From Acidobacteriota bacterium (GTDB taxonomy: Bacteria; Acidobacteriota; Terriglobia; Acidiferrales; UBA7541), in contig QHYL01000260.1 in the NCBI GenBank assembly GCA_003224105.1, positions 1 through 33,225 on the forward strand: a stretch of 33,225 bases of DNA, read 5' to 3'. This document shows, piece after piece, positions 1,995-14,496 of this stretch (position 1 is the stretch's first letter; every line of letters starts with the position of its first letter). A model generated the notes under the pieces. That model did not search any database. It had not been told where the DNA came from and saw nothing but the letters and a program-made list of their open reading frames with translations. Both the position numbers and the translations under genes were made by a program.

Positions 1995-2399
1995 AGAAGT
2001 CCCATGTCGTTGCGGATGTGGCAGCAGCACCTGGGAGCACGGTGACACCCAAACTCTCCAGCGCAAGCCGAAGAATGGTTTCGTGTTGATAGAGCGTCGT
2101 CGATTGATACGCGACCTTAGAACATTTTGGGCTAATTAGCACTGCCGCGACGCCCCCCGCCATCAGTGTTACCTTGGCTGACTCGTCGAACACAACGATG
2201 AGCAGGCACTCTGCCCCGTCATCACGGTCTGATTTGTCGGCTGGGTCGTGATCGAGGGAGGTGACTGTGTGAAATGTGCGTTTAAGCTGGTTGCTCCGGT
2301 GCAGCCCGACAGACCTATGGCCATTAATAGTAAAGGTGCCCCTACGACCCAGCTTCGGAAAGGCATAAGAAACCCCCGCGAGAAAATCTCGCAACTCAC
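1984..2399 (-). pseudogene. Remnant of a lipoprotein with Ig-like N-terminus and phosphoesterase (acid/alkaline phosphatase family) C-terminus
   Basis: One minus frame gives a lipobox signal plus Ig-like start (LLLMAIGLSGCTGATSLNAHFTQSPPSITTQPTNQTVMTGQ). Another frame gives a phosphoesterase-like C-terminus (LLIVVFDESAKVTLMAGGVAAVLISPKCSKVAYQSTTLYQHETILRLALESLGVTVLPGAAATSATTWDFF). The middle is absent. Confidence 0.6.
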
Positions 2400-2829
2400 T
2401 TTTGTTGTATGGCTGAGTAAAACCCCGCACGAACAAAACCTCTTTGGCCGAGTTACATCCGTTGTTCCGAACTCGATAACCAGTCCTTTCCCTTCGGGGA
2501 GCTACCTTGTCAGGTCTCTCTAGTTCAACGGACCGTCGAGGTGAAGCAGCCGGGCGCGTCGCTCCCTAAGGGCGAATCCGTGACTGTACGCAGGTTTCCC
2601 CCGAGCACAAGGAGCGAAATGTCTCCCTAGATCACAGGGCACGACGAAGGACTTTTGTACCTGAGACCGCATTGACTTTCGTACCCAGCACGTTGTGGAA
2701 AACAGAAGCTGTTTCTATCCTCAGGCAAATGTCTTCCTCCTCAGAGGATATTTCGCTTCTTGTGATCAGTTCAGAGGCGCACATACTCTCTTTCCTGGTG
2801 AATTCTAAAGCCTTCGGTTGAGGTGACCC

Positions 2830-3171
2830 GTGGGAACGCCGGAAAATGCCCGAAAAGCCATTCGGTTCCCGTTGGAAGTGCCGATTGTGTTTTGGTGGGT
2901 GGACTGTGGAAATGAGAAACGGAGTGAGGGCCGCACGCGTGACATCAGCGAGATGGGGGCATTCATTTTTGCCCCTGCTTATCCGCCCATGGGAACTCAG
3001 GTTTGCTTCAATTTCCTCCTTCCGATGCTCCCCGGGCTGGAAGCCAAAACACAGGTGGACGCAGAGGGCCAAGTTCTGCGGGTGGAGCGGCCCAGCGTTC
3101 GCGAAAAGCGCAGCGGCTTTGCGATTTCAACTCGACGCACGCTCTTGCGCATTAACAACGACACTCATTAA
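2830..3171 (+). CDS. PilZ domain protein
   Basis: GTG start. ARKAIRFPLEVPIVF contains RxxxR and DISEMG contains DxSxxG. Size and C-terminal pattern fit a single-domain PilZ. Confidence 0.8.
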   Translation: MGTPENARKAIRFPLEVPIVFWWVDCGNEKRSEGRTRDISEMGAFIFAPAYPPMGTQVCFNFLLPMLPGLEAKTQVDAEGQVLRVERPSVREKRSGFAISTRRTLLRINNDTH

Positions 3172-4002: not shown

Positions 4003-4153
4003 GCGAGCCGAGGTGTTTTCTGCAATGTCCAATCCCATGGTGCGTCCCCAGCTGATAGACGAATCCTCGAGTGTGTCCCCGTCTGTTGGTGGGGAGTAAC
4101 TCGTCAGCGCACCTGCAAATCGACGCACGTTGCAAATAGCAAGAGCGTGCCTC

Positions 4154-7100
4154 ATGAAGAACCTGGAGCAGTTGCATCGTCAAGATGGGAAAATGGTCTG
4201 TCTTGCAGTCCTCTTCGCTCTCTCAGTTGGTTCGTACCTCGTTTTGAGTAGACTTACAGCCCGACAAGGGAAAGATCGCGGGGCGCTTCTGCGCTCCCCC
4301 GATACAAGGCTACCCAGGAGCTCGTCTGCTCAGCGGACTTCAGCCTTGGTGGAACCATCGATTCTTTTGGCAAAACCTGCGCCAGGATCTCGCGCTTCCC
4401 TGCAGGAAAGCTATGGCAAAAACCCTTTGGCTTTCGAGGCCAATCAGGGCCAGGCGGACGCAAGGGTGAGGTTCCTTTCACAGGGCACCGGTTATGCCCT
4501 CTTTTTCACGGCGAAGGAAGCTGTTGTAGTGATGCGTAAATCGGCAGCCGAATCCTCAACCGCTAGCTCTGTTTCTGAACCACAGCCCTTTGCTGCGATG
4601 CGGATGCGTTTCGTAGGTGGTAACCGCTCTCCTCGCGTCTCCGGCTCGGACGAGCTTCCAGGCAAAGTGAACTATTTTATCGGCAACGATCCCAAACAGT
4701 GGCGTTCCGGGGTCTCCACCTTCGCCCGCGTGCGCTACGAAAACGTGTACCCGGGCGTCAGCGTGGTCTACTACGGAACACCAGGACGTTTGGAATATGA
4801 CCTCGTCATTGCCCGCGGTGTCGACCCAAAGATCATCGCCCTAGACTGTCTGGGGGCAAGCCAGGTGAGAATCGATTCCCAAGGCAATCTTCGCCTCGTG
4901 ATCGCCGGCAGCGACTTGCTCTTGAGCAAGCCCCACATCTATCAAATGACTCCAAACGGACCAGCGCGGCGAAAGAGTATTCCTGGCGGGTATCTCCTCA
5001 AAGCCGGAGGGCACGTTGGATTTCAAGTCGGCGAGTACGACCGGAACCAGCCACTTATCATTGACCCTGTGTTGACCTACTCCACGTATTTGGGAGGAAG
5101 CGGATACGACGCAGGGACCGCGATTGCTGTGGACACTTCGGGCAGCACGTACGTTACCGGCTTCACTCGATCCACAAATTTTCCGGTGACAGCGGGGGCT
5201 TTGCAAACCAGCTGTGGAACGACCGGCACGTGTAATGGATATTTTTGGGACGCTTTCGTCACAAAGTTAAATTCCACCGGACAGTTGGTCTACTCGACTT
5301 ACTTGGGCGGGAGCGCAAATGACATAGGAAAAGCCATTGCTGTAGACGCTTCTGGCTCCGCATACATCGCCGGCCAGACTTTTTCGACCGACTTTCCGAC
5401 TACGGCGGGAGCTCTTAATACGGCTTACGCCGGAGCGGGAGATGTGTTCTTAACCAAGCTGAGCGGCACGGGAACATCACCTCAATATTCGACATACCTG
5501 GGAGGCACCGGAATTGACAATGCCGAAGGCATAGCTGTTGATGCTGCCGGCAACGCCTATGTGACGGGTCAAACGTACTCCACGGATTTTCCTACGGTCG
5601 CGCCGACCCAGGCCTTTTATGGCGGCAACCAGGACTCGGACGCCTTCGTCACGGAAATCAACAGCACCGGCTCAGCTTTGGTGTATTCCACTTATCTTGG
5701 CGGCAGCAGTATGGATTGGGGTAATGCGATTGCCTTGGATGCTTCCGGAGACGCCTATGTCGTTGGCTTCACAAGATCAACCGATTTCCCCTTGGCAGGT
5801 TCACTTCAGCCCGTCTGCCGTGGATGCCCGGGCTTCGCAGACGCTTTCATAGCCGAATTGGCACCCAATGGTACCTCCCTGCTCCACTCCACTTACTTGG
5901 GAGGCAGTGGTGATGACCAAGCTGCCGGTATCGCCGTCGACACAGACGGCAATATTTATGTGACTGGCTTTACCTATTCCACCGATTTCCCGACCATCTC
6001 CGGCGCTTACCAAACCACTCTGACAACTGGGCAATCCGCCGCATTTGTAACCAAGATTGCGCCCGGCTTCTCTTCCCTTACTTGGTCAACATACCTTCGA
6101 GGGACCGGGCTGAACTACGGAAAGAGCATCGCGGTGGATACGGGAAATGTCTTCGTTGCGGGAGTGACGTATTCTCCAGCGTTCCCGGTTTTGCTTCCCA
6201 CCCAAAGCACGTGTGCCCCTTCGAACTGCTATTACGGCACTGGCTTCATTGCCGAGCTAAACGCCTCCGCCTCAGGCCTGATTTTCTCGACCTACCTGGG
6301 TGGCTCGCACGGCGATGACATTGCCGGAATTGCGCTCGATCCGTCCGCAAACATTCAGTCGACAGGACAAGCCGCTTCAACAGATTTTCCAGTGGTGAAC
6401 GCCGTTCAGGCCTCCTTCGCTGGCAGCTACGGCGATGCGTTCGTTACGAAGATCTCGCTCCAACCCGTGGCTACACCTTCCCCAACCAGCTTAACCTTCG
6501 GCAGCCAGACTGTGGGCACCACGAGTTCTCCGCAGACAGTTACACTTTCCAGCAACGGCACCGCTCCTTTGCATATCACAGGCGTATCTATCAACGGCGA
6601 TTTTGCAGAGACCGATAACTGCACTCCTGGAGTCGCCGCCGGATCCACATGCACGCTCAATGTAACCTTCACTCCGACAGCGAGCGGCACGCGCACCGGC
6701 ACGCTGACGATCAATGACAACTCTGGCAGCCCGCAAGCGGCTACGCTTACGGGCACAGGTACATCTGCGGGGGTGCCCGTCGCGAGCTTGTCAACTTCAA
6801 GCCTTTCGTTTGGCAATCAGCCGCTGGGCGCAACCAGCGCACCTCAAAACTTTAACCTAACAAATACGGGTGACGCGCCGTTGTCAATCACTAGAGTCAC
6901 CATCAGTGGTCTGAACCCTGGTGACTTCGCGCAAACCAATGATTGCGGGACTACGGTGGCAGTCGGAGCAAGTTGCACCTTTAGCGTCACGTTTACTCCT
7001 ACTGCAATTGGGAACCGCTCTGCGACTATAAACATTACGGACAACGCTAGCGGCAGTCCGCAGCATGTAAGCCTGGCCGGCACAGGTTTCGGGCCGATGG

Positions 7101-8053
7101 TGACTCTGAATCCGACCAGCCTTCCCTTTGGCAATCAGAATGTTGGCACTACCAGCAGCGCAAAAGCCATACAACTCAAGAACACAGGCAATGCGACACT
7201 CACCGTAAGTAGCCTCACCATTACCGGGACGAACGCCACTGATTTTACCCAGACGAGCAATTGCCCGAATTCGCTAGCTCCGGGCGCGCAATGCAACATA
7301 AGCGTGACCTTTACTCCCACGAATATTGGAACGCGCGCCGCAGCCGTGAGTGTTTCTGACGACGCGCTTAACAGTCCTCAGACGGCTAGCCTGACAGGAA
7401 GTGGCACGTCTGGCTCTACCAAAGTAACTCTGACCCCCAACAAACTCTCTTTTGGCAACCAAGCGATGGCATCAACAAGCTCCGCTCAGACCGCGATCCT
7501 CAAAAACACTGGTCAAGCCATCTTGGTCATCTCAAGCATCGCCATTGCTGGTCCCAATTCTGGCGATTTCGCGCAAACGAATGATTGTGGAAATACGATG
7601 GCAGTCGGAGCCAGTTGCATGTTCAGTGTCACGTTTACTCCTACTGCAAGCGGGAACCGCTCCGCGACCATAAGCATTACGGACAATGCGGGGGGCAGCC
7701 CACAGCACTTAAACCTCACCGGCACGGGTTTCGGCCCAATGGCAACTCTGAATCCGACCAGTCTCTCCTTTGGTAATCAGAACGTGGGCACAACCAGCGG
7801 CGGAAAGGGCATCCAGCTGAAGAACACAGGCAATGCCGCGCTCACGATCAGCAGCATTGTGATAGGCGGGACGAACGCCACCGACTTTGCACAAACCAAC
7901 AACTGCCCCGGCTCGTTGGCTCCCGGCGCGCAATGCAATATAAACGTGAAGTTCTCACCAGCCGCGTCGGGAGCCCGCACGGCAACGCTTACCATCTCGG
8001 ACAATGCTACCAACAGCCCCCAGACAGCAAGTCTCACAGGAGCGGGCCAGTGA
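4154..8053 (+). CDS. Secreted SBBP-repeat beta-propeller protein with C-terminal choice-of-anchor D (ASPM/SPD-2/Hydin-like) repeats
   Basis: N-terminal domain (NPLAFEANQGQADARVRFLSQGTGYALFFT). Seven SBBP-type repeats (e.g. YSTYLGGSGYDAGTAIAVDTSGSTYVTGFTRSTNFP) and five Hydin-like repeats (e.g. SLSFGNQ..GTTS..Q...L.NTG.A.L.I). ORF opens at 4130; ATG 4154 is the likely start. Confidence 0.9.
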   Translation: MKNLEQLHRQDGKMVCLAVLFALSVGSYLVLSRLTARQGKDRGALLRSPDTRLPRSSSAQRTSALVEPSILLAKPAPGSRASLQESYGKNPLAFEANQGQADARVRFLSQGTGYALFFTAKEAVVVMRKSAAESSTASSVSEPQPFAAMRMRFVGGNRSPRVSGSDELPGKVNYFIGNDPKQWRSGVSTFARVRYENVYPGVSVVYYGTPGRLEYDLVIARGVDPKIIALDCLGASQVRIDSQGNLRLVIAGSDLLLSKPHIYQMTPNGPARRKSIPGGYLLKAGGHVGFQVGEYDRNQPLIIDPVLTYSTYLGGSGYDAGTAIAVDTSGSTYVTGFTRSTNFPVTAGALQTSCGTTGTCNGYFWDAFVTKLNSTGQLVYSTYLGGSANDIGKAIAVDASGSAYIAGQTFSTDFPTTAGALNTAYAGAGDVFLTKLSGTGTSPQYSTYLGGTGIDNAEGIAVDAAGNAYVTGQTYSTDFPTVAPTQAFYGGNQDSDAFVTEINSTGSALVYSTYLGGSSMDWGNAIALDASGDAYVVGFTRSTDFPLAGSLQPVCRGCPGFADAFIAELAPNGTSLLHSTYLGGSGDDQAAGIAVDTDGNIYVTGFTYSTDFPTISGAYQTTLTTGQSAAFVTKIAPGFSSLTWSTYLRGTGLNYGKSIAVDTGNVFVAGVTYSPAFPVLLPTQSTCAPSNCYYGTGFIAELNASASGLIFSTYLGGSHGDDIAGIALDPSANIQSTGQAASTDFPVVNAVQASFAGSYGDAFVTKISLQPVATPSPTSLTFGSQTVGTTSSPQTVTLSSNGTAPLHITGVSINGDFAETDNCTPGVAAGSTCTLNVTFTPTASGTRTGTLTINDNSGSPQAATLTGTGTSAGVPVASLSTSSLSFGNQPLGATSAPQNFNLTNTGDAPLSITRVTISGLNPGDFAQTNDCGTTVAVGASCTFSVTFTPTAIGNRSATINITDNASGSPQHVSLAGTGFGPMVTLNPTSLPFGNQNVGTTSSAKAIQLKNTGNATLTVSSLTITGTNATDFTQTSNCPNSLAPGAQCNISVTFTPTNIGTRAAAVSVSDDALNSPQTASLTGSGTSGSTKVTLTPNKLSFGNQAMASTSSAQTAILKNTGQAILVISSIAIAGPNSGDFAQTNDCGNTMAVGASCMFSVTFTPTASGNRSATISITDNAGGSPQHLNLTGTGFGPMATLNPTSLSFGNQNVGTTSGGKGIQLKNTGNAALTISSIVIGGTNATDFAQTNNCPGSLAPGAQCNINVKFSPAASGARTATLTISDNATNSPQTASLTGAGQ
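5083..6450 (+). repeat. Seven tandem SBBP-type coding repeats
   Basis: Recurrent YSTYLGGS...D.G.AIAVD.SG.AYV.G.T.STDFP motifs in the translation. The sixth and seventh copies are the most divergent. Confidence 0.85.
6470..8050 (+). repeat. Five tandem Hydin-like coding repeats; the last four form an A-B-A-B higher-order duplication
   Basis: Units contain DFAQTNDCG(T/N)T(V/M)AVGASC(T/M)FSVTFTPTA(I/S)GNRSATI(N/S)ITDNA or FGPM(V/A)TLNPTSL(P/S)FGNQNVGTTS...NATDF(T/A)QT(S/N)NCP(N/G)SLAPGAQCNI in alternation. Confidence 0.85.
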
Positions 8054-8093: not shown

Positions 8094-8996
8094 ATGAAAA
8101 AATCAATAGCCGTTCTATGTTGCGCGTTGCTCTTAGTTCTTTGTTTTCCTGCAGGTGATTTCAAAGCGCAAACTCAGGATGTCATTCTTGTCGGAGCCGG
8201 CGACATTGCCCGTTGCGGCCCGGAAAACCTTCACTATCCCCAGGCCACCGCCACGTTACTCGATTCCCTTCCCGGCAGCGTCTTTGCCATCGGCGACCTT
8301 GCGTACGTCGACGGACTGGAAACCGAGTTCAACAGATGCTTTGACGCCACTTGGGGGCGCCACCGTGGTCGCCTGCATCCGGTCCCTGGCGTGCACGACA
8401 TGATCGCGCCAAACGCTTTTGGCTACTTCAATTATTTCGGGCCTTCCGCGGGCGATCCCACGAAGGGCTACTACAGCTTTAACTATGGTGCCTGGCACGT
8501 GGTGGTCCTCAATAGTGTGTGTACCAAGGCGCCTACCTTACCTGGCGCTTGCACAGCCACTTCGCCCGAGGGGCAATGGCTTCAAGCCGACCTGGCCGCG
8601 AATCCCACTGCCTGCACCGTGGCTCTCTGGCATACCCCGCTCTACACTTCCTCGACGGCCGACGCAACTCCCGCCGTGCAGCCTTTCTGGCAGATTCTCT
8701 ACAACGCCAGAGCCGACCTGATCATCAACGGCCACGCCCACAACTATGAACGTTTCGCCCCGCAAGACCCCAACGGCAATTTGGATACAGCCAGCGGCAT
8801 TCGCGAATTCGTCGTTGGGACCGGTGGCGAAACTCTGATGTCCTTTGACACCACACTCGCGCCAAACAGCGAAGTCCGCAACAGCTCGACCAACGGCGTC
8901 ATTCAAATCACTCTTCATGCAACCAGCTTCGATTGGCAGTTCATACCAGTCGCAGGTCAAACCTTTACTGATTCGGGTTCCCAGGCGTGCCATTGA
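8094..8996 (+). CDS. Secreted calcineurin-like metallophosphoesterase
   Basis: Signal peptide MKKSIAVLCCALLLVLCFPAGDFKAQ, then GAGDIARCG, GDLAYVDG, PVPGVHDM, LWHTPLYTSS, NGHAHNYERFAPQDPNG. ORF opens at 8004; ATG 8094 fits the signal peptide. Confidence 0.88.
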   Translation: MKKSIAVLCCALLLVLCFPAGDFKAQTQDVILVGAGDIARCGPENLHYPQATATLLDSLPGSVFAIGDLAYVDGLETEFNRCFDATWGRHRGRLHPVPGVHDMIAPNAFGYFNYFGPSAGDPTKGYYSFNYGAWHVVVLNSVCTKAPTLPGACTATSPEGQWLQADLAANPTACTVALWHTPLYTSSTADATPAVQPFWQILYNARADLIINGHAHNYERFAPQDPNGNLDTASGIREFVVGTGGETLMSFDTTLAPNSEVRNSSTNGVIQITLHATSFDWQFIPVAGQTFTDSGSQACH

Positions 8997-9058
8997 CGGT
9001 AGACCCGCTGCCTCTTGTGGCGCCACCGAAAATCACACCTGGAGAGTTCGAGGAGAAA

Positions 9059-9799
9059 ATGTCCATGCATAGCAAAATTCTTTGTTTTTTCGGAGCTTGG
9101 ATTCTTCTTGTGACGGCCGGGCGTGCATGCGCGGGCCAAGGAAAGCCAGAGGCGTCCACAGCCGACGCACTGACGGCAGCGGGTGGTCCCAAGACGACTC
9201 CAGAGGCGGTGGACCGCCCTGAGCTACATCGACGGAATCCGCGATACCAGTTGAGCAAAGACGATGTCCTTCAGTTGAATTTCGCTTTGACACCAGACTT
9301 AAATCAAACGGTCAGTGTCCAGCCAGATGGCTACATCACTTTGCTGGGTGTGGGTGATCTACATGTGGAGGGACAAACGATTCCAGAGGTCAGGGAATCG
9401 ATTCGCCTGGCTTACGCCAAAACGTTGCACAACGCCATCATCACCGTCCGCCTGATGGACTTCGAGAAACCGTATTTCATCGTGGGTGGAGAAGTGGGAC
9501 ATCCAGGCAAATTTGAATTGCGTGGAGACACGACTGTGACGGAGGCGGTAGCCATCGCGGGCGGTTTCACAGAAAGCTCGAAACACTCACAAGTCTGGCT
9601 TTTCCGCCGCGTTTCGAACGATTGGGCGGAGACACAGCGGTTTGACTTAAAGAGAATGCTCAAGAGCGGCGATCTGCGGGAAGACGCGCATCTGCGTCCT
9701 GGCGACATGTTGTACGTTCCCAAGAATACACTCTCGAAGATGAAACGCTTTATCCCCGTCGCTACTTTAGGAACGTATCTCAATCCGGGCCAGTTTTAG
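9059..9799 (+). CDS. Wza-like polysaccharide export protein (Poly_export/SLBB)
   Basis: Signal peptide, then YQLSKDDVLQLNFALTPDLNQTVSVQPDGYITLLGVGDLHVEGQTIPEVRESIRLAY and YFIVGGEVGHPGKFELRGDTTVTEAVAIAGGF. Confidence 0.92.
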   Translation: MSMHSKILCFFGAWILLVTAGRACAGQGKPEASTADALTAAGGPKTTPEAVDRPELHRRNPRYQLSKDDVLQLNFALTPDLNQTVSVQPDGYITLLGVGDLHVEGQTIPEVRESIRLAYAKTLHNAIITVRLMDFEKPYFIVGGEVGHPGKFELRGDTTVTEAVAIAGGFTESSKHSQVWLFRRVSNDWAETQRFDLKRMLKSGDLREDAHLRPGDMLYVPKNTLSKMKRFIPVATLGTYLNPGQF

Positions 9800-9834: not shown

Positions 9835-11367
9835 ATGGACGAAGCGAAATCAGAAAAAAAACACAATGGTAACAATGGCGCGTCGCCCTCTTTTTCTTTG
9901 CGGGATTTGCTTGGTGCGATTTTTCGCCGCAAAAGACTGATCCTGCTCTCCTTCATGGGAGTTTTGCTGGGCGCCCTTCTCGCAATTATCATCCTGCCTT
10001 CCACGTATGAAGCGCAGATGAAAATCCTGGTGGAGCATGAACGTGTGGACCCGGTCGTATCTCCTCAGGGCAACGTAGTTGAATCAGACCGGTACCTCAC
10101 TCCCGACGAGGTTTCCTCGGAAGTCGAGCTGTTCCAGAGCCGTGATTCCCTAAAACAAGTCGTCGTGGATCACGGACTTCATGAAATCAAGAATCCGTGG
10201 TCTCTGGCAGGCATCAAGATGCGTGTGCTGGGAACCCTCGGACTTGCGCCCGGCAAGGATGAGCGGATTTTTAAGGCTGTCCTTAAGCTGGAAAAGGACC
10301 TGCATGTCATTCCGCTGAACAACTCAAATATGATCCGGGTGACGTACGAGGCGCGCTCGCCCCAGACCGCTGAGCAGGTGCTTACCGGGCTAGGGAACCT
10401 CTACCTAGCAAAGCACGCCGAGGTGCATCGTCCAGGGGGGACCACTGAGTTCTTCGAGCAGCAAGCCGATCAATACAAGAGAGAACTGGCCAGCGCCGAG
10501 TCGCGGCTGATCAAAATGAGTCAGCAAACCGGAGTCGTTTCCGCGGACTTCGAGAAACAAGCCACTTTGCAGAAACTCAGCGATTTCGACGTTTCGCTTG
10601 AGCAAACACGCGCCTCCATCGCCGAGACAAAACAACGGATCCAGGCCTTGCAAGAAAAAGAGGAATCCATTCCTTCCCGCATTACGACCCAGGTTCGTAA
10701 CGCGGATAATCCCGAACTCATGGCAAACCTTAAAACGACCCTGCTGAATTTGGAAATCAAACGCACGGATTTGCTCGAGGCTTATGAGCCGGGCTATCCA
10801 CTGGTTCAAGAAGTTGAGAAGCAGATTGCCCAGGCAGTGACAGCAATCGCGGACGCCAAGGCAGGTGCAGTTCACGAAGAGACCACTGATCAGAATCCCA
10901 CTCATGAGTGGGTCAGCACCGAGATGGCCAAAGCCCAGGCCGACTTAATGGGCTTGGAAGCGCGCTCTTCCGCGCTTTCCCGAGGCCTCAACACTCTTCA
11001 TCAAAAGGCCTTGAAATTGGACCAACAATCGGTGGTTCAGCAGGACCTCTTGCGCACGGCTAAAGCGGACGAGGACAGCTATCTGCTGTATCACAGGAAG
11101 CGCGAAGAAGCGCGCATTGCCGATGCGCTCGACCGCAGCAAGATTATCAACGTGGCCGTAGCAGAAGCGGCAGCCGCTCCATTAGTCCCCACGGGGCTTT
11201 CGTTGACGGTAAAGCTCATCTTAGCGATTGTCATCGCTGCCCTCGCAAGCTTGGGAGCAGGCTTGCTTCAAGAGCATCTCGATCCCTCCTTCCGGACAAC
11301 CGCCGAAGTTAAGGAGTATCTGGACATTCCCTTGGTGGCTGCTGTTCCAAGAAACGATCATAGGTAG
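9835..11367 (+). CDS. Wzz/GumC-like polysaccharide chain-length determinant / co-polymerase
   Basis: N-terminal TM (KRLILLSFMGVLLGALLAIIILPSTYEAQMKILVEHERVDP), long coiled-coil region, C-terminal TM (LTVKLILAIVIAALASLGAGLLQEHLDPSFRT). No fused kinase domain. Confidence 0.92.
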   Translation: MDEAKSEKKHNGNNGASPSFSLRDLLGAIFRRKRLILLSFMGVLLGALLAIIILPSTYEAQMKILVEHERVDPVVSPQGNVVESDRYLTPDEVSSEVELFQSRDSLKQVVVDHGLHEIKNPWSLAGIKMRVLGTLGLAPGKDERIFKAVLKLEKDLHVIPLNNSNMIRVTYEARSPQTAEQVLTGLGNLYLAKHAEVHRPGGTTEFFEQQADQYKRELASAESRLIKMSQQTGVVSADFEKQATLQKLSDFDVSLEQTRASIAETKQRIQALQEKEESIPSRITTQVRNADNPELMANLKTTLLNLEIKRTDLLEAYEPGYPLVQEVEKQIAQAVTAIADAKAGAVHEETTDQNPTHEWVSTEMAKAQADLMGLEARSSALSRGLNTLHQKALKLDQQSVVQQDLLRTAKADEDSYLLYHRKREEARIADALDRSKIINVAVAEAAAAPLVPTGLSLTVKLILAIVIAALASLGAGLLQEHLDPSFRTTAEVKEYLDIPLVAAVPRNDHR

Positions 11368-11372
11368 AGCCG

Positions 11373-12353
11373 ATGTTCCTCGATCATTTCGGTCTGCGCG
11401 GGCAACCATTCGGGGTTACTTCGGATCCCCAGTTTCTCTATTTCGGCCCGTCCCATCAGGAGGCTTTGGCTTCCCTGTTTTATGGGATTCAGACGCAACG
11501 CGGATTCATAGCCCTGATTGCAAAACCGGGGATGGGCAAGACCACCCTGCTCTTCCACCTATTAGAGCATTTACGAAGCTCCGCCCGCACCGCCTTTTTG
11601 TTTCAAGCGCACAGTGACTCGCGGGAGTTTCTGCGCTCTCTTGTCGCCGATCTAGGGGTCAATGTCGAACAGGATGACCTTCGGGGGATACACCGCAAGT
11701 TGAATGACCTTCTGATCCAGGAACTGCGCGCTGGCAGGCGCGTTGTCATTGTGATTGATGAAGCGCAGAACCTCGACGACTCGGTGCTGGAAACGGTACG
11801 AATGCTGTCCAACTTCGAAGTCCCGGGAACAAAGCTCATGCAGATCCTCCTCGCCGGCCAGCCGCAATTGGCCGACAAACTGGCAAGCAAAAATATGGTT
11901 CAGTTGCGTCAGCGAATCTCCATTCTGTGCAGCTTGGCGCCGTTCAGCGCGCCTGAAACTGCAGATTACATTGGCCATCGCCTGCGCGTCGCGGGCTACC
12001 GCGGCAAACCCCTCTTCACTGCCGGGGCGCTGGCGTTGATCCATTCCCGAAGCGAGGGAATACCACGCAATGTCAATAACCTCTGCTTCCACGCGTTAAC
12101 TTTAGCGTTCGCCAATGGCCAAAAGACCATCGACACCTCGACCCTGAACGAAGTGTCTGAGGACCTGGCTATGGAGATGCTCGGCTCCTCTCCTGCAAAT
12201 CAAACCTCTGCGCGGTTGCAATCCAAGCCCGGAGACGCGGCGGATCTGACTCAGATCACAGCGGAACAAAATGGGGAGGCTTCCGAATGGCTAGAAGAAG
12301 AGGGCGTCTCCGGCACCCAGGTCATCTCGGGTCGTGTCAAACTGCGTCTTTAA
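11373..12353 (+). CDS. ExeA/GspA-like AAA ATPase (type associated with XrtA/PEP-CTERM EPS loci)
   Basis: MFLDHFGLRGQPFGVTSDPQFLYFGPSHQEALASLFYGI; Walker A KPGMGKTTLL; Walker B RVVIVIDEAQNL. Confidence 0.92.
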   Translation: MFLDHFGLRGQPFGVTSDPQFLYFGPSHQEALASLFYGIQTQRGFIALIAKPGMGKTTLLFHLLEHLRSSARTAFLFQAHSDSREFLRSLVADLGVNVEQDDLRGIHRKLNDLLIQELRAGRRVVIVIDEAQNLDDSVLETVRMLSNFEVPGTKLMQILLAGQPQLADKLASKNMVQLRQRISILCSLAPFSAPETADYIGHRLRVAGYRGKPLFTAGALALIHSRSEGIPRNVNNLCFHALTLAFANGQKTIDTSTLNEVSEDLAMEMLGSSPANQTSARLQSKPGDAADLTQITAEQNGEASEWLEEEGVSGTQVISGRVKLRL

Positions 12354-12450
12354 TTTCAGCGCGGAAGGGAACGCAATGAAGTGTGCTGAGGAATACTTCT
12401 TCACGGTCAAGTAGGGTCTTGGCAGCTCGCAAGCGAATGGGAGGCACATC

Positions 12451-13191
12451 GTGAGCAAAAATATTGAAGTACTTCTGCGGGCCAAAGAAACAACGGAGCT
12501 GTTCAAGCCCAAAAGCGTTCCTCAGAAGTGTTCGGAACCCCGGCTCCCGTCCAAACCCACCGAAGCCGTCGGTTCTGCGGAAGAAGCCGACTTGGTCCAA
12601 CAGGTGTTCCTCCTGCCTGCTCGGGAGGTGCCTCGCGTTGTGGTGTTTTATGGCGTCGGGGAGGTAGATGGAGCGATTGGTATTTGCGCCCGCGCCGCGG
12701 AAAACCTTGCCAACCAGACCGGTTCGTCGGTGTGCGTTGTCGAGGGACATTTTCATGCTCCCTCTGTGCATGGATATTTTGGTGTAAGTAACTCCCGCGG
12801 ACTTACGGATGCTATCCTGGAGCCGGGGCCGATCCAGGATTTCGTTTGCCCTCTTCCAGAAAGCAACCTCTCCGTCCTATCCGCCGGCTCTCGTTGCGGA
12901 GAGGCGCATGCACTTTGGAAATCCGAGTCGTTGCGAGCCCGCATGGAGGAGCTTCGCTCTAAGTTTTCCTACGTGTTGATTTATTGCTCTCACGCGAATC
13001 GCCACGTTGACGCGATGCTCCTAGGTCAAATCGCGGACGGAGTCATCCTAATTCTTGAGTCTATGGTGACTCGACGTGAGACCGCGCGAACGGTCAAAGA
13101 AAATCTAGATGCTGCAAATGTGAAAATTCTGGCGGCAGTACTGAACAACCATTCTTATTCCATCCCGGAAAACCTTTATAGAAAGCTCTAA
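12451..13191 (+). CDS. CpsD/CapB-like BY-kinase homolog with degenerate nucleotide-binding motifs
   Basis: The global pattern (AAENLANQTGSSVCVVEGHFHAPSVHGYFGVSNSRGLTDAILEPG...LLGQIADGVILILESMVTRRETARTVKENLDAANVKILAAVLNN) matches BY-kinases of EPS loci. Walker A, A' and B positions are altered. Confidence 0.8.
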   Translation: MSKNIEVLLRAKETTELFKPKSVPQKCSEPRLPSKPTEAVGSAEEADLVQQVFLLPAREVPRVVVFYGVGEVDGAIGICARAAENLANQTGSSVCVVEGHFHAPSVHGYFGVSNSRGLTDAILEPGPIQDFVCPLPESNLSVLSAGSRCGEAHALWKSESLRARMEELRSKFSYVLIYCSHANRHVDAMLLGQIADGVILILESMVTRRETARTVKENLDAANVKILAAVLNNHSYSIPENLYRKL

Positions 13192-13287
13192 TAGAGAGCT
13201 GTGCCGAGCGCGTGTTTGCGCCAGTCCCGTTCGCTCTGCCGGCCGCGCCTGACTTTTTCTGGATTCCGAGAATTCTGCAGGAACCAA

Positions 13288-14496
13288 GTGAAGCCCGATT
13301 TGGTTAGACATAATCACACGGAGAGATCGGCAGCCACACTCTCCAAGGATTTGCAGAGAACGGAGTTTGACATCCACGGGGTTTTGGGGGTTGCGCTCGT
13401 CGATCCTTCCTCTGCGGATGTGAAAGCGGTTATCAAGCATCTTGGACCTCTTCGGGGGCCTTTGCTGCGCGAGCCGGACATCACCATCCGCTTTGACAAA
13501 AATCTGGCGCCCCTCTGCTTACGGCACTTAGGTCAGAAGCAAAACGCCTTCACGGACGATGCATTCTTTGTTTTTGATGAGACAGACAGAAGCGCCATGG
13601 CGAAGATTCCCTTCGACCAAGTAGGAAGTCGCTGTGAAATTGTTTGCACGCGTAGCCGCGGGTCCATGCCCCTTCTGGTGCCCCTCTTGAGTTTGATTGC
13701 CTTGGCGAAGGGCTTTGTCGCGGTTCATGCATCCGCTTTTGTTCATCGTGGCGTAGGCATCCTGATGGCCGGATGGGCTGGAAGCGGAAAGACCACGGCG
13801 CTTCTCGGGTTTGCTAGCGAAGGAGCGGAATTTATTGGAGAGGAATGGGTTCTCCTCAGCGGAGACGGACAAACCATGTGTGGGCTTCCGAGGGAGATCG
13901 AACTCTCGCCCGCCCACTTGGACACCGTGCCCGAAGTTCGTCGCGCGATTAAACGCTCGAGGCTCTGGGGATTTGAAAGCCTTCGTCACCTAACCACAAT
14001 GCAAGACCTTCTTCCCAGGAAAGCCGATGGCACAACTCCCGCGAAGGCCCTGCGAAAAGTGATTTCCGCGGCACAGCGGCGCATTCTCCCCACAGTGCGC
14101 CCACAGGCGCTTTTTGGCGACCGCGTCGCTTCGTTGACCGCAAGGCCCGACAAAGTCTTCCTGCTGATCAGTCACGATGATCGCAACGTAGAAATAATAC
14201 CGACTCCGCCCCGGGAAATGGCGCGCCGCATCGCTCACATGATGCAGTATGAGCAGCGCCGGTTTATGGAACACTACCTCGCCTTCCAATTTGCATTTCC
14301 TGAAAGGAAGAACGCCTTCGTAGAAGAATCGTCGAGCTATCGATATGAATTACTCTTGAGCGCTCTCCAGGGAAAGGAAACTTATACGGTACGGCACCCG
14401 CATCCGATAGCCTTTTCTTCGCTGTATGAAGCAGTGAAGCCATTTTGCGGAACCACGAAAAGTATTCAAACCGAGGTGGTTTGTGCGGTCCCATGA
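13288..14496 (+). CDS. HprK-like P-loop kinase/phosphorylase-related protein
   Basis: FVAVHASAFVHRGVGILMAGWAGSGKTTALLGFASEGAEFIGEEWVLLSGDGQTMCGLPREIEL. ORF opens at GTG 13201; GTG 13288 is an in-frame alternative start and the exact start is uncertain. Confidence 0.75.
   Translation: MKPDLVRHNHTERSAATLSKDLQRTEFDIHGVLGVALVDPSSADVKAVIKHLGPLRGPLLREPDITIRFDKNLAPLCLRHLGQKQNAFTDDAFFVFDETDRSAMAKIPFDQVGSRCEIVCTRSRGSMPLLVPLLSLIALAKGFVAVHASAFVHRGVGILMAGWAGSGKTTALLGFASEGAEFIGEEWVLLSGDGQTMCGLPREIELSPAHLDTVPEVRRAIKRSRLWGFESLRHLTTMQDLLPRKADGTTPAKALRKVISAAQRRILPTVRPQALFGDRVASLTARPDKVFLLISHDDRNVEIIPTPPREMARRIAHMMQYEQRRFMEHYLAFQFAFPERKNAFVEESSSYRYELLLSALQGKETYTVRHPHPIAFSSLYEAVKPFCGTTKSIQTEVVCAVP

Follow-up and report, generated by a model that had tools for sequence, protein, structure and literature searches.

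The window, by which we mean the whole stretch of 33,225 nucleotides that was analysed (Acidobacteriota bacterium, contig QHYL01000260.1), contains a run of genes on the plus strand for an outer-membrane polysaccharide export protein, a Wzz-like protein, an AAA ATPase, and a protein with a BY-kinase fold in which the catalytic motifs are altered. The genes and the features within them are as follows.

8987..9799, plus strand: outer-membrane polysaccharide export protein (OPX) with SLBB domains, TIGR03027-like
9835..11367, plus strand: Wzz-like PCP-2 without a kinase domain, the proposed partner (Pfam Wzz; TIGR03007-like)
11272..11364, plus strand: cytoplasmic C-terminus of the PCP, EHLDPSFRTTAEVKEYLDIPLVAAVPRNDHR, a proposed docking tail, conserved in all complete orphan PCPs examined
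11373..12353, plus strand: AAA ATPase, TIGR03015-like (251 bits against a cut-off of 324.5), Walker A PGMGKTT intact
12440..12444, plus strand: GGAGG, a Shine-Dalgarno-like site 6 nt 5' of the GTG start, read from the sequence
12451..13191, plus strand: BY-kinase-fold pseudokinase of 246 aa (open reading frame, homology, predicted model, Foldseek)
12451..12483, plus strand: N-terminal peptide MSKNIEVLLRA (family MS[KR]NFELLQ; this or a variant in 55 of 58 homologues)
12580..12609, plus strand: helix EEADLVQQVF at the site of the BY-kinase EX2RX2R oligomerisation helix, Arg residues lost
12649..12687, plus strand: former Walker A loop YGVGEVDGAIGIC, with Ala75 at the Lys position
12733..12762, plus strand: former Walker A' CVVEGHFHAP, Asp to Glu98 and Asp to His100
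12970..12999, plus strand: former Walker B YVLIYCSHAN, Asp to Tyr178
13144..13188, plus strand: C-terminal tail NNHSYSIPENLYRKL (family N[NK]RTFPIPExLYxRL) at the site of the Tyr cluster

The product of 12451-13191 is a genuine BY-kinase homologue, too degraded for the Pfam P-loop models, which gave no match to it, or for the NCBIfam cut-offs (69 bits against 108 for TIGR01007; 52 bits against 230.65 for TIGR03018). It matched S. aureus CapB in phmmer at 7.7e-11. An AlphaFold2 model, for which the input alignment contained some canonical kinases, had a pLDDT of 83 and a pTM of 0.78; its best Foldseek match was CapA2B2 (4jmp, E 6e-15, TMq 0.74), and the top ranks were filled by the CapA2B2, CapAB, VpsO and Wzc kinase domains at TMq of about 0.62-0.74. 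A plasmid search returned records that were all below 60% identity, 35 of 40 among the matches listed being annotated as tyrosine kinase. A "tyrosine autokinase" label drawn from fold similarity alone would misname the genes of this family.

The translation reads VFYGVGEVDGAIG at Walker A, with no GKS/T, and departs from the expected A' and Walker B motifs in just the way that the original prediction had quoted. Features of a catalytic BY-kinase are missing throughout, including the Walker A Lys (Ala75), the A' DxD and Walker B Asp (Glu98/His100 and Tyr178), and the C-terminal Tyr cluster, where the tail reads NHSYSIPENLYRKL; what is left is a BY-kinase fold without catalytic motifs, as in EcpK and HfsB. 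The cluster was correctly called absent, the protein ending in NLYRKL, but its C-terminus is not empty, as it carries the family-wide NxRxFPIPExLYxRL tail with one near-invariant Tyr, modelled as a short helix at 240-245. Sequencing error is an unlikely source of the motif losses because the closest relative (L006), which comes from a different genome, has most of the same ones, namely those of the Lys, the first A' Asp and the Walker B Asp.

Homologues were sought in the window's own genome, in 100 relatives and in contigs of named genomes; the last of these started from a single peptide pattern immediately preceding the tail and therefore favours VLN[NK]R sequences, a bias from which the search of the relatives' genomes is free. 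The family was found in Acidobacteriota, chiefly Terriglobia and Acidiferrales, and includes the cultured species Acidicapsa dinghuensis (L075), with remoter matches in Omnitrophota, Brocadia, a spirochaete, Desulfobacterales, Nitrospinaceae, Burkholderiales and Methylomonas. Also found in the window's genome were a second pseudokinase locus on contig C21, its product 44% identical to the window protein and with its N-terminal peptide set apart from the domain by some 200 additional residues, and three intact BY-kinases, two of them fused PCP-kinases (C43 and C256) and one a stand-alone XrtA-type kinase (C2).

None of the 58 sampled acidobacterial homologues has the Walker A Lys, its position being taken by Cys (42), Ser (7), Ala (5), Gly (2), Pro (1) or His (1). 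The first A' Asp position in the same 58 proteins holds Asp in 52 and Glu in 6, the second Asn in 50, Asp in 6, and His and Gly in 1 each, and the Walker B Asp position Asp in 39, His in 12, Asn in 6 and Tyr in 1. That sole Tyr belongs to the window protein, and the Walker B state has changed at least 8 times on the tree. Because of these motif states across the 58 pseudokinases, the Lys loss and the A' change from Asp to Asn are regarded as family features. Judged from the sampled sequences, the loss of the Walker A Lys is old, ancestral to the whole family and fixed, and losses of the first A' Asp and of the Walker B Asp are later and patchy; on the same grounds the further A' and Walker B loss, unlike that at Walker A, is peculiar to the window lineage. 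The window protein is the most degraded member of the family, and both it and L006 are off the family pocket consensus. Across the family the altered segments are conserved above average (Walker A 2.5, A' 3.0 and B 2.8 bits, against 2.2), which suggests a reshaped pocket rather than mere erosion. The motifs had been described as eroded, which is right in that all three have changed but misleads in that the Lys disappeared long ago, with the loss now fixed, and most relatives conserve the altered pocket (G.GCS.IC, VDANLR). Cysteines are frequent by the former nucleotide pocket in the family alignment (in window numbering, Cys95 invariant, Cys79 in 79% and Cys75 in 67%); the pairing of Cys75 with Cys79 is not strict across the family, and Cys75 is absent from the window protein.

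Neighbouring genes were tallied at the 34 acidobacterial loci for which the sequence extended 3 kb or more upstream. A kinase-less Wzz-like PCP was present at all 34, OPX at 31 and the AAA ATPase at 25, and the order OPX-Wzz-AAA-pseudokinase is retained in the genome of L006 (G032) and in the desulfobacterium L087. At the window locus, as in systems of the EcpK/HfsB kind, the linked PCP-2 has no kinase domain, and complete orphan PCPs end soon after D.SFRTP.EV..L..PVLA..P or close variants, a segment that leads into the kinase domain in fused PCP-kinases. With a PCP and a separate pseudokinase, these loci have the layout of a bipartite PCP-2. Within the window there was no match to an intact BY-kinase or to an exosortase, the only exosortase match in the genome being on contig C389 in a search limited by contig ends. 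Directly 3' of the pseudokinase, at 13201-14496, is an HprK-related protein with an intact P-loop (GWAGSGKTT), a neighbour also seen in the G032, L040 and L055 loci (dN/dS 0.21-0.26). Upstream of the export genes, at 4130-8053, a 1307-aa protein with an SBBP-type beta-propeller and five choice-of-anchor D stretches is encoded, which is syntenic in G032.

Conserved in the family are the fold, the N-terminal MS[KR]NFELLQ, which occupies the same place as MSRIHEALKKA of the intact C2 kinase, and the C-terminal N[NK]RTFPIPExLYxRL, located where canonical kinases carry the Tyr cluster and including a Tyr (Tyr243) that is 97% conserved. Tail and Lys state were concordant in 103 of 106 rows, 68 without Lys and with the IPxxxY tail and 35 with Lys and a Tyr-rich tail, the exceptions being two without Lys but with another tail and one (L095) with Lys and the IPxxxY tail; these rows are related by descent, so no p-value is given, and sampling beyond Acidobacteriota was seeded by the nearby peptide pattern. 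Treating the Lys/tail contingency as independent counts was rejected, as it goes back to only about two changes on the tree. The 58 acidobacterial homologues form one supported clade (SH-aLRT 96). In a second tree, from which eight rows were omitted (L095, L115 and the groups of L087, L089 and L090, which are long branches and their kin, all IPxxxY-tailed), 63 Lys-less rows lay on one side of a branch and the 35 canonical kinases on the other (support 91.7, not starred). We suggest tentatively, at a little under even odds, that these sequences may represent one ancient, cross-phylum BY pseudokinase lineage, in which the Walker A Lys was lost, A' DxD became DxN, and a VLN[NK]RxxxIPxxxY docking tail took the place of the Tyr cluster. 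If true, this would provide a sequence rule separating phosphorylation-independent PCP-2 systems from kinase-driven ones.

The kind of protein is already known, as BY pseudokinases of bipartite PCP-2 have been published in the pairs EcpK/EpsV and HfsB/HfsA (PMC12004946). In M. xanthus EPS depends on EcpK, which binds EpsV, and in Caulobacter HfsB stabilises HfsA in holdfast synthesis (PMC12004946). Like the window protein, EcpK (MXAN_7447) is a stand-alone BY-kinase fold with no Walker A, A' or B motif and no Tyr cluster, and it works with a kinase-less PCP-2, EpsV, in a Wzx/Wzy exopolysaccharide pathway (PMC12004946). Compared by description, the C-terminal helix of EcpK has Lys/Arg and no Tyr, whereas the acidobacterial family has the IPxxxY tail, and it also differs from EcpK in its MS[KR]NFELLQ peptide, its conserved altered pocket and its frequent AAA neighbour; the role of EcpK has been tested by experiment, and that of the acidobacterial family is predicted by computation. 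HfsB/HfsA, with HfsB likewise compared by description, is similar in being a bipartite PCP-2 with a stand-alone pseudokinase (PMC12004946) but belongs to another pathway and another phylum. The gene company of the pseudokinase matches that of the XrtA-associated tyrosine autokinase (TIGR03018), whose locus has a TIGR03007 PCP and a TIGR03015 ATPase; the N-terminal peptide is positioned as in the XrtA-type, but the GEGKT and Tyr tail seen in the C2 kinase are both gone from the pseudokinase family. CapB/CpsD (PDB 2ved, 3bfv, 4jmp) shares the fold and the bipartite design with a separate membrane PCP, but CapB binds ATP and autophosphorylates its Tyr cluster. What appears to be new is the acidobacterial clade, together with its altered but conserved pocket and its IPxxxY tail, the last of which also occurs in other phyla; no description of them was found in the literature searched, which included few subscription journals.

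We propose, with a probability of about 0.7, that the window protein is a BY pseudokinase scaffold that completes a bipartite PCP-2 and does not carry out ATP-driven tyrosine phosphorylation. The proposal builds on the predicted fold and on the motif loss, its age, the gene linkage and the selection described below, and from these we infer a complex, a lack of nucleotide binding and an effect on export. The Wzz-like PCP-2 encoded two genes upstream lacks a cytoplasmic kinase domain, for which the stand-alone pseudokinase would substitute. The cytoplasmic tail of this PCP, LDPSFRTTAEVKEYLDIPLVAAVP, probably docks on the pseudokinase in the position that the first helix and strand occupy in a canonical kinase domain, and the N-terminal peptide and the IPxxxY tail are the likely docking elements on the pseudokinase side. 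By binding and release, rather than by ATP-driven tyrosine phosphorylation, the pseudokinase could help the PCP ring to assemble and come apart, and this in turn would affect polymer length and export. In 2025 EcpK raised the question of how a PCP-2 can function when there is no cycle of tyrosine phosphorylation; the family extends that case to a whole soil-bacterial clade, including A. dinghuensis, shows graded catalytic loss under continuing selection, and makes two short conserved peptides stand out as candidate docking elements.

The same motif losses might be expected of a dying gene, an ex-kinase under relaxed selection in the window lineage. All three motifs are altered, the window branch of the tree has roughly double the length of the L006 branch (0.24 against 0.13), and change is greatest in the former active-site loops, where the window protein deviates from the family consensus more often than elsewhere (odds ratio 2.9, p 0.015). 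L006, however, is 69% identical and lies in a syntenic OPX-Wzz-AAA-pseudokinase-HprK-like locus, and against it dN/dS for the pseudokinase was 0.14 (NG86) or 0.17 (YN00), approximate values from a single close relative with dS above 1. The neighbours gave similar values by the same two methods (Wzz 0.11/0.16, AAA 0.13/0.17, OPX 0.14/0.20), and other close family pairs ranged over 0.05-0.25. Neither frameshifts nor stops were found in the pseudokinase in this comparison, a relative-rate count of 12 against 5 sites indicated no significant acceleration (p 0.14), and the tail and fold are retained. Decay was rejected on the dN/dS, the intact frames and the unaltered rate and is a most improbable reading; the fold is kept under purifying selection, in agreement with the earlier view that it has been preserved, which had named relaxed selection and frameshifts as signs of simple decay.

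The remaining alternatives accept a functional protein and differ from the scaffold in what it does. Binding of a non-canonical ligand, with the P-loop altered for a Lys-free nucleotide or other ligand at a new site formed by G.GCS.IC and VDANLR, is compatible with a scaffold and fits both the conservation of the altered segments and the prevalence of Cys at the Lys position (42/58) and Asn at the second A' Asp (50/58), but the window protein has lost these residues (Ala75, His100, Tyr178) at a locus still under selection, which makes this reading unlikely. Even so, the Walker B Asp and one of the A' Asp residues persist in the majority of relatives, so that other family members, if not the window protein, may have retained binding of a nucleotide or another ligand. 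A regulatory subunit, pairing with an intact BY-kinase or phosphorylated in trans on the single tail Tyr like some eukaryotic pseudokinases, could draw on the kinases at C256, C43 and C2 and would account for the near invariance of Tyr243; it is quite unlikely, given that the linked PCP has no kinase domain and the window no intact BY-kinase, that the EX2RX2R oligomerisation residues are lost, and that EcpK has been argued to work without the M. xanthus BY-kinases (PMC12004946). The protein might instead be an adaptor or substrate of the AAA ATPase, which would supply energy that the pseudokinase relays to the PCP. The P-loop of the ATPase is intact and the OPX-Wzz-AAA-pseudokinase order is frequent, but the ATPase is not specific to pseudokinases, as it is absent at 9 of the 34 loci and also adjoins the intact Walker A/Tyr-tail kinase at C2. 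Its presence there indicates a locus companion rather than a substitute for kinase activity, and an obligate AAA partnership is weakened accordingly; this role is decidedly unlikely, though the adjacent ATPase might nonetheless power a cycle together with the pseudokinase. Of the two partners first suggested for a non-catalytic protein, the Wzz-like PCP, its most constant neighbour, thus fits better than the ATPase.

Several related sequences were unusual. L095 is a long Methylomonas open reading frame with the Walker A Lys kept, an IPxxxY-like tail and a degraded A', and it is the sole mixed case. Long reading frames with the IPxxxY tail and without the Lys in Omnitrophota, Brocadia, a spirochaete and another bacterium (L077, L079, L082, L083 and L085) are probably PCP-pseudokinase fusions. 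On contig C389 of G000, beside the genome's only exosortase (2239-3015, plus strand), a BY-kinase gene (L099; 3292-3675, minus strand) keeps a Tyr-rich tail but is seemingly missing the region that spans Walker A and A' (...LKKVLINLRGEADEYGVIQKG...), by true deletion or an assembly fault. A TIGR03015-type ATPase at 1576-2242 of contig C166 in G000 is in two pieces with an in-frame TAA and is a probable pseudogene or assembly fault. The record CAJCHZ010000019.1 (L054), titled Betaproteobacteria bacterium, has the same sequence as G006:C19 from the window's genus, a probable taxonomic mislabel. In paralogous pseudokinases of 424-460 aa (L002/L098, with L008, L010, L011, L016, L017, L019, L020 and L035), a long insert separates the N-terminal peptide from the domain, and nearly all of them have His in place of the Walker B Asp.
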